Positions 3,649 through 26,260 of a stretch of DNA of 33,168 bases are shown here, in pieces. The stretch lies in IMG/VR virus record IMGVR_UViG_3300042691_003290, positions 1 to 33,168 of that record; one strand, 5' to 3'. The stretch comes from a virus. The notes beneath the pieces are model-generated. The model saw only the letters and a program-made list of their open reading frames with translations, did no database searches and was not told the DNA's origin. Every line of letters begins with the position of its first letter. The first letter of the stretch is position 1. Both the position numbers and the translations under genes were made by a program.

Positions 3649-4725
3649 TCACCCGTTCACGACCTTGTCGATGCTGTCGGCCAGAGCCTGATCGTCGCCG
3701 GTCAGGACGCCGGCATAGACGGCGAGGGTGACTTCGACGTTCGCATGGCCGAGGCGTTCTGAGACGGCCTTCAGCGGCATCTTCTCGCGTAGGAGATGCG
3801 TGGCGTGCGCGTGGCGCGTCGAGTGCAGGCAGTAGCCTTCGTCAAGGCCAATCGCGCGCAGGGCGTCCTTCGTGGCGCTGGTCATGTAGGCCAGCGTCGG
3901 ACGATCGCCCCACACGGTTTGCAGGACGTGCTTGTCAGGCTTGCCAGCTGCGGCCTTCAATTCTTCCCACAGCGACTTCGTCATGCGGATCGAGCGGATC
4001 GACTTCGCCGTCTTAGGCTTCTTCTCGTACTCGCTAGCGCCGACGCGAACGACCGTGCGACAGACGTGAATGATGCCGGTCTCTAGGTCGATGTCGGACC
4101 AGCGCAGGGCGCACATCTCGCCCCGGCGCATCCCCGTGGCGAGCGCCAGACGGATCATGCGACCAAGGAAAGGCTTGTCGGCGGCGTAGGCCAGCAGCGC
4201 CTTGATGTGGCGCTTCTCGAGCGGCTTGCGGGCCTCGCTCTCGCCCTTCGGAGCGGAGACGCGCTTCATGGGGTTCTTCGTCAGGAGACCGGCTTCTACG
4301 GCCTGATTGAACATCGCCTTCAGGTGGTGATGCGTGATCGTCATCGTGCCGGCGGCAACCTTGCGGATGCGCGACAGGTAGAAGTTCTCGATGTCGTCTG
4401 ACGTGATCGACTTCAGCTGACGGGTGCCATAGTCGTCGATGAACGGCTTGATGAGGTTCTGCTGGCTTTGCAGCGTCAGTTCGCTGATCTGCTTCAGGCC
4501 GAGGCGTTTGTTCTGCCATTTCGTCCAGTGCATCTTCACGGTGTCGTCCGTGATGTGGACGAGATCGCCGCTGCGGTGATCCTTCAGGATTTCGACCTTG
4601 CGGGCCTGCGCGTCGAGTTCCGAACCTTTCAGGGTCTCGGTGCGGAACTTCCGCTGGCCGTTTTCCTTGGTCTCGATGCGGATGCGCCAGACGCCGGGAG
4701 CGCGTTCAAACAGGGTGACTTTCAT
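3649..4725 (-). CDS. int: Tyrosine recombinase / phage integrase
   Basis: This 358-residue protein has the layout of a phage integrase. There is an N-terminal arm-type region (residues 1-55), an all-helical core-binding domain (about 60-150) and a catalytic domain (about 165-350). The catalytic set is visible: R200 in TGMRRGE, a lysine in the 235-241 segment, H301-x-x-R304 in HSTRH, H327 in ERLGH and the nucleophile Y337 in VYAGV. The ATG is preceded by a strong Shine-Dalgarno (GAGAAGGAGAA). It is the only clear minus-strand gene and converges on the late virion operon. Its upstream region holds a good promoter overlapped by an operator-like motif. It should carry out site-specific integration and, with an excisionase not identified here, excision. 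Confidence 0.97.
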   Translation of the reverse strand: MKVTLFERAPGVWRIRIETKENGQRKFRTETLKGSELDAQARKVEILKDHRSGDLVHITDDTVKMHWTKWQNKRLGLKQISELTLQSQQNLIKPFIDDYGTRQLKSITSDDIENFYLSRIRKVAAGTMTITHHHLKAMFNQAVEAGLLTKNPMKRVSAPKGESEARKPLEKRHIKALLAYAADKPFLGRMIRLALATGMRRGEMCALRWSDIDLETGIIHVCRTVVRVGASEYEKKPKTAKSIRSIRMTKSLWEELKAAAGKPDKHVLQTVWGDRPTLAYMTSATKDALRAIGLDEGYCLHSTRHAHATHLLREKMPLKAVSERLGHANVEVTLAVYAGVLTGDDQALADSIDKVVNG

Positions 4726-20376: not shown

Positions 20377-20398
20377 CGGCGCAAACAGGAGACCCCGC

Positions 20399-20710
20399 AT
20401 GGCTAAGTCGCCTGCATGGACGCGCAAGGCTGGAAAGAATGCGAAGGGTGGCCTGAACGAAGCAGGCCGCAAGTCGTATGAAGCGGCCAATCCCGGTTCC
20501 GATCTAAAAGCGCCTGTGAAGTCTGGCGACAACCCGCGCAGGGCTTCGTTCCTCGCCCGCATGGGCGGAATGCCGGGACCAGAGCGCGACGAGAAGGGCA
20601 AGCCGACGCGCTTGCTGCTCTCGCTTCAGGCTTGGGGCGCATCGAGCAAGGCTGATGCGAAGAAAAAAGCTGCGGCGATTAGCAAGCGCAACGAGGGCAA
20701 GAAGAAATGA
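20399..20710 (+). CDS. DUF6321-like basic phage protein (103 aa)
   Basis: ATG 20399 has CAGGAG upstream; the frame is open earlier only through the promoter. The sequence (SPAWTRKAGKNAKGGLNEAG, then GDNPRRASFLARMGGMPGP, then TRLLLSLQAWGASSKADAKK) matches a small, highly conserved phage family that I know as DUF6321, usually located near terminase and portal genes. It is basic (Lys-rich end, ISKRNEGKKK), so a DNA-associated or head-internal role is likely, but none is established. It is the first gene behind the head-operon promoter. Confidence 0.75.
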   Translation: MAKSPAWTRKAGKNAKGGLNEAGRKSYEAANPGSDLKAPVKSGDNPRRASFLARMGGMPGPERDEKGKPTRLLLSLQAWGASSKADAKKKAAAISKRNEGKKK

Positions 20711-20865
20711 AAAAGGTGTGGAACACGAAAGACCCGACGAAGGGTGACAAGAAGCTGACGCCGAAGCAGAAGGCGTCTGCTAAGGCTGCGGCTGCGAAGG
20801 CTGGTCGTCCTTATCCGAACCTTGTGGACAACATGCGCGCTGCGGCGAAGAAAAAGGGCAAGTGA
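20707..20865 (+). CDS. Very basic small phage protein (52 aa)
   Basis: The ATGA overlap with the preceding gene sets the start. The protein contains LTPKQKASAKAAAAKAGRPY, then PNLVDNMRAAAKKKGK; about a third of its residues are Lys or Arg. Similar short proteins with a K/A-rich helix followed by GRPYPNLVDNM occur next to the DUF6321-type protein in other phages. Likely a DNA-binding or structural accessory protein; the function is unproven. It is followed one base later by the next start. Confidence 0.65.
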   Translation: MKKVWNTKDPTKGDKKLTPKQKASAKAAAAKAGRPYPNLVDNMRAAAKKKGK

Positions 20866-20866
20866 C

Positions 20867-21343
20867 ATGGAAGACGAAATGCAGGGCGGTCAATGCCCCG
20901 TCGCTACGCGCGACATTACGATCAATTTGCAGAACCGTGGCCGCGCGATTGACAAGGCTAACTATGGCCCGATGAACCCGCGCGAGCCGAACGATCGCTA
21001 CTGGCAGCAGCTGGCTGCGAAGTGGGACGTTCCGGTTGAGGAAGCGAAGACGATGCGCTGCGGCAACTGCGCGGCGTTCAATCAGACATCGAAGATTATG
21101 GACTGCATCAAGCAGGGCTTCGGAGGAGAAGGACAAGCAGATGACCCTATGGGAACGGTTGAAGCAGGCGATCTCGGATTTTGCGAGATTTTTGACTTTA
21201 AGTGCGCCGCAGAACGAACCTGTGACGCATGGATCGTCGGAGGCCCCATCACGGACGAAGAAGAGGGCGACGAGTACGAAGACGAGTACGACGACGAAGA
21301 AGGCTCCGAAGAAGACGAAAGCGGCAACGAAGAAGAGGACTAA
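20867..21343 (+). CDS. Cys-rich head-region protein with acidic tail (158 aa)
   Basis: ATG 20867 is one base after the preceding stop. The main part (CPVATRDITINLQNRGRAID, then NYGPMNPREPN, then MRCGNCAAFNQTSKIMDCI and LGFCEIFDFKCAAERTCDAW) matches a recurring phage head-region family with six to seven conserved cysteines, possibly a metal or iron-sulfur site. After IVGGPI the protein carries about 30 residues of almost pure Glu/Asp. In the family members I recall, the protein ends near this point, so the acid tail is extra. That tail is coded by the same DNA as the basic tail of another gene (21141-21350). Confidence 0.75.
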   Translation: MEDEMQGGQCPVATRDITINLQNRGRAIDKANYGPMNPREPNDRYWQQLAAKWDVPVEEAKTMRCGNCAAFNQTSKIMDCIKQGFGGEGQADDPMGTVEAGDLGFCEIFDFKCAAERTCDAWIVGGPITDEEEGDEYEDEYDDEEGSEEDESGNEEED

Positions 21344-21350
21344 GTCGTGA
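21141..21350 (+). CDS. Overlapping gene with Lys/Thr-rich tail (69 aa)
   Basis: ATG 21141 is preceded by GGAGGAGAAGGA, a very strong ribosome binding site within the Cys-rich gene. The product begins MTLWERLKQAISDFARFL, an amphipathic helix, then has a Pro/Asn/Ser linker and a histone-H1-like tail of Lys, Thr, Ala and Arg (KKAPKKTKAATKKRTKS). Its TGA overlaps the GTG of the glycosyltransferase (GTGA), exactly the coupling used throughout this genome. That exact junction plus the ribosome binding site are good evidence of translation. It may bind DNA. The same 200 nt give an acidic tail in the other frame. Confidence 0.65.
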   Translation: MTLWERLKQAISDFARFLTLSAPQNEPVTHGSSEAPSRTKKRATSTKTSTTTKKAPKKTKAATKKRTKS

Positions 21351-22036
21351 AGGTTGCCATCTGCATACCGGCACGGGAGACGGTTTGCTCAGGCTTTGCG
21401 AAAGACTTGGCAATGCTGACGGCGAATATCTACGCCGGTCTTCCGCAAGGCGGCACGTTCAACGTCAACATTCTGAGCGGCACGCTCATCGCAGACCAGC
21501 GGCAGAACCTTGTTCGCAAGGCGTTTGCGGCTGACTACGACTATGTGCTGTTCCTCGACGCCGACATGCGCTTCCCGGCTGACACGTTCTGGAAGTTGCA
21601 GCGGCATAACAAGGACATCGTCGCAGCAAACTATCCGACGCGCCGCATCCCGGTGAAGACGGTCGCGTTCCGTGACTTTGCGAACCTTGAGTGCATCTAC
21701 ACGGACAACGGCAGCACCGGGCTTGAAGAGGTCGATGCGGTCGGTATGGGCGTGATGCTCATCAAGATGGACGTGTTTCGGAAGTGTCCGCTGCCTTGGT
21801 TCAATCTGGCGTGGCTTCCGTCAGGGAATGTGTGGGTCGGAGAGGACATTTACTTCTGCAAGCTCGCGCAGGCGCATGGTTTCAAGGTCTACATCGACCA
21901 CGACCTGTCGAAAAACGTGAAGCACATAGGGTCGATGGAGTTCACACACGATCACGCGGTGGAATGTCGGCCTGATACGCCGATCGACATCGCAGAGGCG
22001 GCAGAAAAGATCGAGGCAATGGAGGCCGAGGCATGA
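21347..22036 (+). CDS. Glycosyltransferase-like protein (229 aa)
   Basis: A GTG start overlaps the stop of the basic overlapping gene. The sequence shows a GT-A-like fold: VAICIPARE at the N-terminus, YDYVLFLDADMRFP around residue 65-80 with the D-x-D-type metal site, DAVGMGVMLIK, and the GEDIYFCKLAQAHG segment, where the acid is the usual catalytic base position. Such enzymes occur in phage head-gene clusters. They could modify DNA, capsid or host surface sugars; the target is unknown. The gene ends with an ATGA overlap with a small basic gene. Confidence 0.75.
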   Translation: MKVAICIPARETVCSGFAKDLAMLTANIYAGLPQGGTFNVNILSGTLIADQRQNLVRKAFAADYDYVLFLDADMRFPADTFWKLQRHNKDIVAANYPTRRIPVKTVAFRDFANLECIYTDNGSTGLEEVDAVGMGVMLIKMDVFRKCPLPWFNLAWLPSGNVWVGEDIYFCKLAQAHGFKVYIDHDLSKNVKHIGSMEFTHDHAVECRPDTPIDIAEAAEKIEAMEAEA

Positions 22037-22191
22037 AGAAGTCGAAGTCAGAGAAGAAGATCAGCAAGGTTATGACCGAGTTCGGCGCTGGCAAGCTGCA
22101 CAGCGGCTCGAAGAAGGGTCCGGTCGTGAAATCGAAGAAGCAGGCGATTGCGATCGCGCTTTCTGAGGCCGGAAAGAGCAAGAAAAAGTGA
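22033..22191 (+). CDS. DUF6496-like small basic protein (52 aa)
   Basis: The ATGA overlap sets the start and a GTGA overlap the end. KVMTEFGAGKLHSGSKKG, then KSKKQAIAIALSEAGKSKKK matches a widespread small phage and bacterial family with KVMxEFxxGxLxSGS...KQAIAIALSEAG, which I know as DUF6496. It is Lys-rich with a single amphipathic helix. The function is unknown; it often accompanies head genes. The match to the family pattern is close. Confidence 0.75.
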   Translation: MKKSKSEKKISKVMTEFGAGKLHSGSKKGPVVKSKKQAIAIALSEAGKSKKK

Positions 22192-22745
22192 AGCACTTCT
22201 ACGACAAGATCGACGGCTGGTTCAATTTCAGCAAACCCTACCGCGATGCGGTGAAGGGAGCGAAAGATGGCGCGATTTTTGTCGAATTAGGGTGCTGGAA
22301 AGGCAAATCGGCGTCTTTTATGGGCGTCGAGATTGTCAAAAGCGGAAAGTCGATTGCGTTTCACTGTGTCGATCATTGGGGAGGGTCGAATGAGCCTGCT
22401 CACAAGGCTGACCCCGATCTTGAGCGCGTTTTCGACATCTTTAGCGAGAACATGGAGCGCATCGAGGGCCTCGATCTGCACGTTCATCGCATGGCTTCAG
22501 CGCCAGCTGCTCATCTCTTTGAAGATGGCTCGGTCGATTTTGTCTGGATTGACGCGGGCCATGAGTTTGAAGAGGTGATGGCTGACATAGAGGCTTGGTG
22601 GCCGAAGGTGAAGGCCGGCGGCGTCATGGGCGGTGACGATTACCCGATGGATGGTGTAAAGAAAGCTGTAGATACGGTTTTCACCGGGCGCGAAGTCGGC
22701 TCTGAGAACGGCTGGCAGTGGTGGCGCGTGCGGAAGAAGGGATAA
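22188..22745 (+). CDS. Class I SAM-dependent methyltransferase (185 aa)
   Basis: A GTG start overlaps the previous stop. The SAM-binding motif I is FVELGCWKGKSASFMG (about residues 31-46), followed by AFHCVDHWGG (motif II acid), and VDFVWIDAGHEFEEVMADI (about 115-133), then a KAGGVMGGDD motif. This is a Methyltransf_24-like layout, often acting on sugars or small molecules rather than DNA. With the neighbouring glycosyltransferase it may decorate a glycan on capsid or cell. The gene ends four bases before the portal gene. Confidence 0.8.
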   Translation: MKHFYDKIDGWFNFSKPYRDAVKGAKDGAIFVELGCWKGKSASFMGVEIVKSGKSIAFHCVDHWGGSNEPAHKADPDLERVFDIFSENMERIEGLDLHVHRMASAPAAHLFEDGSVDFVWIDAGHEFEEVMADIEAWWPKVKAGGVMGGDDYPMDGVKKAVDTVFTGREVGSENGWQWWRVRKKG

Positions 22746-25222: not shown

Positions 25223-26260
25223 ATGAACACAGCCGAGCAGTCGCAGCCTAGCGAAATCGGCATTGCAGAAGCAGCAGATCGCTTTGCGGCATTGATGGGA
25301 GGCCCCGAGGCCGAACCCACACCCGCAAAAAGACAGCCTGCCCCTGCCGAGACCGAGGAGGTCGAGGCGTCTGCGGAAGAAGTCGATGAGACGCCTTCTG
25401 AGGATGGAGAGGCCGCAGAGACCGATGAGGTCGATGCGTCGTCCGAAGAAGATGCGACAGAAGCCGCAGAGGACGAAGATGATGGCTCGGAACGCGAGCT
25501 TTCAGATGACACGCTCGTAACCGTCAAGATTGACGGCAAGACGCAGCAAATCACTCTGAAGGAAGCGCGGGAAGGTTATCAACGGCAGTCCGATTATTCG
25601 CGCAACATGAATGCTCTCCGCGAGGAGAAGCAGGAAGTTGATGCGGTTCGCCAACAAGTTCTTGTTGAGCGGCAACAATACGAAGCACTGATCCCGGCCT
25701 TGCGCCAGCAGCTTGAACAGCTGCTTCCACAAGAGCCAGATTGGGAGAAGCTGCATCGTGAGGACCCGCTGAACTACCCGCTGATACGAGATCAGTGGCG
25801 CGACTATCAGGAGCGCCTTGCTGCGACGAGAGCCGAACAGGAACGTCTCAGCTACATCCGGCAGCAGGAAGAACAGGCGCAACTCAGGAAGATTGTCGAA
25901 GAGGGCCAGAAGTGGCTCGTCGAGAAGAACCCTGAGTGGAAAGATGCGAAGAAGTGGGACGACGCGCGTAGCAAGCTGAAGGACTATGGCCGCAAAGTCG
26001 GCTATACGGACGAAGAACTCGCGCAAGCATACGACCCCCGCGCTCTTCTAGTTCTCGACAAGGCTCGTCGCTATGACGAGCTAATGGCTAACAGACCAAA
26101 ACCTGTGAAGCAGGAAGGTCCGAAGCCGATGAAGGCGGGAACACCAGCATCGTCGCCGCGTAAGACGACCGAAGTGACGCGAATGAAACAACGTCTCGCT
26201 AAAACTGGCCGCGTTGAAGACGCAGCCGCTTTCTTCGGACTTCTAGATAGCAGGAGGTAA
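25223..26260 (+). CDS. Capsid scaffolding protein (345 aa)
   Basis: AAAGGAG lies upstream. The N-terminal ~100 residues are extremely acidic, Glu/Ser/Ala-rich and disordered. Then LVTVKIDGKTQQITLKEAR with GYQRQSDYSRNMNALREE, a widely conserved phage scaffold segment, and a long coiled coil (EERQQYEALIPAL-type heptads, about 140-230). The C-terminus is basic (KTTEVTRMKQRLAKTGRVED), as needed to contact coat protein. Scaffold guides capsid assembly and leaves before packaging is complete. The major capsid gene follows directly. Confidence 0.88.
   Translation: MNTAEQSQPSEIGIAEAADRFAALMGGPEAEPTPAKRQPAPAETEEVEASAEEVDETPSEDGEAAETDEVDASSEEDATEAAEDEDDGSERELSDDTLVTVKIDGKTQQITLKEAREGYQRQSDYSRNMNALREEKQEVDAVRQQVLVERQQYEALIPALRQQLEQLLPQEPDWEKLHREDPLNYPLIRDQWRDYQERLAATRAEQERLSYIRQQEEQAQLRKIVEEGQKWLVEKNPEWKDAKKWDDARSKLKDYGRKVGYTDEELAQAYDPRALLVLDKARRYDELMANRPKPVKQEGPKPMKAGTPASSPRKTTEVTRMKQRLAKTGRVEDAAAFFGLLDSRR

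Follow-up and report, generated by a model that had tools for sequence, protein, structure and literature searches.

A probable clade-restricted overprinted gene in the acidic-tail coding segment of a Cys-rich phage protein

The locus and its two reading frames

The DNA analysed here, which we call the window, is a virus record of 33,168 bases in which terminase, portal and major head genes are present. Its portal protein is nearest to those of uncultured Caudoviricetes of Manatee Spring and of Sinorhizobium phage phiM5 (47-50% identity), and a tyrosine integrase-like protein on the minus strand (3649-4725), judged by eye, suggests a temperate phage. The gene of interest, f0 (frame-0 gene; plus strand, 20867..21343, ATG at 20867, TAA at 21341-21343), codes for a Cys-rich protein of 158 aa with an acidic C-terminal tail. 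We confirmed 134 relatives of f0 in IMG/VR and retained 80 loci; seven cysteines (C10, C65, C68, C80, C106, C113 and C119) are invariant across 50 relatives, and a search of the genome collection returned a single, distant relative in a metagenome-assembled gammaproteobacterial genome. Relatives in GenBank carry the label "high potential iron-sulfur protein," a label for which sequence searches of Pfam and the PDB gave no match worth counting. The AlphaFold2 model of f0 was unusable (pLDDT 39).

Overprinted on the 3′ part of f0 is a small unannotated ORF in frame +1 (alt; plus strand, 21141..21350), 69 aa in length, which begins with ATG at 21141-21143, ends with TGA at 21348-21350, 7 nt past f0, and translates as MTLWERLKQAISDFARFLTLSAPQNEPVTHGSSEAPSRTKKRATSTKTSTTTKKAPKKTKAATKKRTKS. 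It is preceded by a Shine-Dalgarno (SD)-like stretch, GGAGGAGAAGGA (21122..21133), whose AAGGA at 21129-21133 lies 7 nt before the ATG. At the downstream junction (21334..21350), an AGAGGA and the f0 stop are followed by a GTGA at 21347-21350, in which the alt stop overlaps the GTG start of the next gene, a glycosyltransferase-like gene (plus strand, 21347..22036; phrog_1574, with Anp1/GT matches). The initial annotation had described this dual-frame layout at 21141-21350 exactly, with frames, SD-like site, start and stop all present, and had also noted that such coupling is used elsewhere; indeed, further 4-nt NTGA overlaps occur at 20707, 22033 and 22188. Small Lys-rich proteins (DUF6496, phrog_34011) at 20398-20710, 20707-20865 and 22033-22191 are chained around f0 by ATGA/GTGA overlaps of this kind.

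What the genetic code and chance already explain

Much of what makes the second frame conspicuous follows from the first. In a +1 overlap, codon position 2 of f0 is codon position 1 of alt, where a stop codon requires T. The acidic tail of f0 (codons 131-158, 21257..21340), which is at the same time the Lys/Thr tail of alt, is made up of E, D, G, S, Y and N, without F, L, I, M or V codons; because its codons never have T at position 2, an alt stop is impossible within it. Moreover, GAR followed by G reads AAG or AGG one base on, and the conversion of acidic codons to Lys and Thr pointed out at first reading (GAA-G to AAG, GAC-G to ACG) is borne out by the sequence. Any such acidic tail therefore carries an open and basic partner frame, and the openness and basic tail of alt, being largely forced by the acidic tail of f0, are weak proof of a gene.

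The same reasoning bears on the earlier proposal that the f0 and alt products, being oppositely charged, bind each other through their tails. The charges themselves are not in dispute, with a tail rich in Glu and Asp in f0 and a net charge of +9 to +14 in the C-terminal part of alt. However, since the code itself forces charge complementarity, the opposite charges cannot be taken to indicate binding, and the acidic tail is also found in clades without the alt ORF. We consider such a partnership very unlikely, and the proposal unsupported.

A more serious challenge is that alt could be a by-product without effective translation, open and basic by virtue of the tail codons, with its start kept by descent and chance. 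We addressed this within a close set of 17 loci plus the window, which amount to 13 distinct, related sequences. Under a column-swap null, the openness of codons 92-130 in all 13 sequences has a probability of 0.21, as this explanation would have it; the alt start and the openness together have a probability of only 0.006. Nested alternative starts of at least 45 codons in seven neighbouring genes offer a further yardstick (n=38, of which portal entries found in one taxon only are uninformative), and among them the alt start alone is both kept and open in 13 of 13 relatives.

Conservation of the start and constraint on the overlap

Conservation of the alt start, by contrast, is not automatic. 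All 13 distinct close sequences keep the ATG, with ATGACCCTATGG at the start, an open frame and a stop 7 nt beyond that of f0; stops inside the second frame of relatives, which the initial annotation had named as evidence against it, are thus nowhere to be seen in this set. An SD-like [AG]AGG[AG] is retained at an unchanged spacing of 7 bases from the ATG in 13/13, even though the f0 residues encoded by codons 88 and 90 change, and in one relative f0 Asp92 has become Asn (GAT to AAT), yet the alt ATG is retained. Codon choice is in keeping with this: Asp92 is encoded by GAT, though these genomes use GAC twice as often, and the SD-like site employs GGA, the rarest Gly codon here. Overprinted viral genes typically combine a widely distributed older frame with a clade-restricted new one, which evolves fast when young (PMC8227390). 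Correspondingly, f0 is found in all 80 retained loci and alt with this start is confined to the close clade, where the other-frame ORF and the older frame are both intact in every one of the 13 sequences.

Within the overlap, synonymous change is most depressed precisely where alt begins. Over f0 codons 92-101 (21140..21169), which comprise the alt start and first ten alt codons, we counted one synonymous change on the tree of close sequences against 12.3 expected (P 6e-5, somewhat optimistic because the limits of the segment were chosen after the alignment was seen). The stretch ranks lowest among 1426 windows from seven genes by a pairwise measure and second of 1047 by tree counts, behind a window of the methyltransferase-like gene. 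Over codons 92-102, variable alleles at f0 position 3 drop from 0.91 to 0.27 per codon, whereas at position 1, where changes are mostly silent in alt (e.g., D92N, I/V98 and D/N102), they differ little (0.27 vs 0.31). Nor is the freeze a general property of f0: codons 92-101 are unconstrained in four of five outgroup clades without the alt ATG (observed/expected 0.89-1.5), the fifth (0.25) being composed of near-identical sequences with little variation. This restriction of the frozen codons to the alt start, solely in the clade that has it, speaks against an untranslated by-product.

Beyond the start, the signal fades. The identity of alt residues 1-10 exceeds the column-swap null (0/1500 as high), and that of residues 11-37 is no higher than chance. 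Synonymous sites vary freely over f0 codons 102-130 (28 changes vs 37.7 expected, P 0.06), and the tail codons show a weak deficit (16 vs 25.1, P 0.04; both by tree counts). The initial annotation had called for a comparison of synonymous and non-synonymous change in both frames, and the outcome is divided: the start codons are constrained, but an overlap-aware NN/NS ratio, computed for the shared stretch in the style of OLGenie (PMC7531306), comes to 1.22 (0.74-2.53) and so is not below 1, with almost no SS sites and little power. The unconstrained middle of the frame speaks for the by-product explanation, as does the existence of a comparable frozen ten-codon window elsewhere without an ORF. 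In the methyltransferase-like gene (22188-22745), synonymous sites at 22605-22664 (codons about 140-159) are near-invariant in the 13 close sequences and as extreme as those at the alt start, and stops in both other sense frames leave no ORF reason for this. Frozen synonymous windows can, accordingly, have causes other than an ORF.

A product might also be beside the point, if alt serves to couple translation to the glycosyltransferase-like gene, whose start (TTG/GTG/ATG) is weak, or if the 30 frozen nucleotides constitute a nucleotide-level signal. The alt stop overlaps the next start in every case, and in the close clade the next gene often has a TTG or GTG start with a modest SD. Several outgroups, moreover, have the f0 stop overlapping the next start as ATGA, a role that the alt stop could have inherited. 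Against this, the f0 TAA, placed 3 nt before the next start, could couple unaided, and the constraint reaches ten codons beyond the alt ATG. As the features of the predicted protein described below would also be left unexplained, we regard coupling or a nucleotide-level signal as a rather doubtful account of the locus.

The predicted product and its place among overprinted genes

Alt residues 3-20 (21147..21200) are predicted by AlphaFold2 to form a helix (mean pLDDT 92 for residues 1-10 and 80 for residues 11-20), with disorder thereafter. The hydrophobic moment of this segment lies above that obtained from random synonymous codons for the given f0 residues (P 0.0004 in the window, 0.002 in L002 and 0.008 in L003), amphipathicity being weak in two of the five representatives tested (P 0.07 and 0.09). 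It averages 0.56 (0.40-0.68) in the close clade vs 0.28 for the same frame in outgroups (median 0.29), which marks the predicted helix as amphipathic. Residues 21-38 (21201..21254) form a linker containing Ser, Ala and Pro, with no detectable constraint. Inspection by eye found no signal peptide, lipobox or transmembrane helix.

In the tail, where T is almost absent at third bases of f0, distinct codons ending in C outnumber those ending in T by 51 to 3, vs 48:38 in the gene body (P 3e-7) and 102:81 in outgroup tails (P 2e-8); an acidic stretch in another gene of the window (25223-26260) has 23 C to 15 T. With T at these positions, the alt tail would acquire Met, Val or Leu. We treat this count as supporting evidence only, since it assumes independent alignment columns and would fit frame +2 too, where T-avoidance would equally hold an Arg-rich ORF at 21229-21534 open. 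That ORF was rejected as the driver, as its ATG reads CTG in 6/13 sequences (GCA/GCC at codon 121). Helix amphipathicity and tail bias are additional signals that a by-product does not account for, and with the start and openness evidence they leave that explanation unlikely in our estimation.

Taken together, a clade-specific constraint on the start, the preserved SD spacing, and a helix and tail bias held by synonymous choice support dual coding. We infer, with a probability of roughly 0.6, that 21141-21350 is a lineage-restricted overprinted gene in which the start and helix are selected and the remainder is loosely composed; selection of the tail for composition belongs to the best account of the data. 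The earlier suggestion that both products may be real is thus partly supported, by start, spacing, helix and tail, and weakened by the unconstrained middle of alt, with translation and function predicted from sequence. In such a gene, initiation would occur internally on the f0 mRNA at AAGGA-N7-ATG, and ribosomes would read frame +1 until they reach the GTGA at which the glycosyltransferase-like gene begins. The predicted product, 63-71 aa long, would have an amphipathic helix of ~18 residues (MTLWxRxKxAI..F) at its N-terminus, followed by a Ser/Ala/Pro linker that evolves loosely and by a cationic tail rich in Lys, Thr and Ala. The helix of this small cationic protein may dock to a membrane or a partner, and the tail may bind nucleic acid or acidic surfaces. 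A cationic protein of this sort would be in line with its small Lys-rich neighbours in the operon, in the packaging region. Quite speculatively, alt could be a phage protein of recent origin that owes its basic tail to an acidic tail read one base off, such that growth of the tail extends both, with the two products possibly acting together.

Gene E of phiX174, located within gene D, is an experimentally proven case of a second protein, a lysis protein, from the other frame of an older phage gene; the overlap of the predicted alt gene is, by comparison, only partial. The lambda Rz/Rz1 spanin genes likewise provide a small protein nested in the other frame of a larger phage gene. Rz1, however, is an outer-membrane lipoprotein, whereas alt has none of the corresponding features by eye and f0 is unlike an i-spanin. 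The small Lys-rich proteins of the operon are akin to alt in being small, basic, coupled by NTGA overlaps and situated beside terminase/portal genes. They match described standalone families, and alt does not: its only viral-contig matches are the same loci, and none were found in phage records, Pfam or PHROGs, nor was any relation to the operon's Lys-rich proteins detectable by Pfam or PHROGs.

To our knowledge, gene callers normally omit same-strand overlaps this long, and such genes are therefore easily missed in metagenomic viruses. Overprinting in phages as such has long been known, phiX174 being a case cited in review (PMC8227390), and alt would be a new orphan instance of it. If translated, it would represent a well-bracketed gene birth, with one clade bearing the start in the tail-coding segment and related clades without it. 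The locus also shows how readily an acidic tail can give rise to a basic one.

Two further arrangements were seen among the more distant loci. One clade (L020, L021, L022, L023, L024, L025, L059 and L070) has an ATG of its own in this alternative frame, located four codons further upstream and behind a strong GAGGAGG. This ATG is present in 8/8 and opens an ORF of 65-67 aa with a Trp-containing start and without the Lys/Thr tail; synonymous constraint was looked for at this start and none was found. In L030, L037, L060, L061, L065, L073 and L076, f0 extends beyond the start of the glycosyltransferase-like gene, giving an overlap of the two genes in which the f0 +1 frame runs on unbroken into the downstream one.
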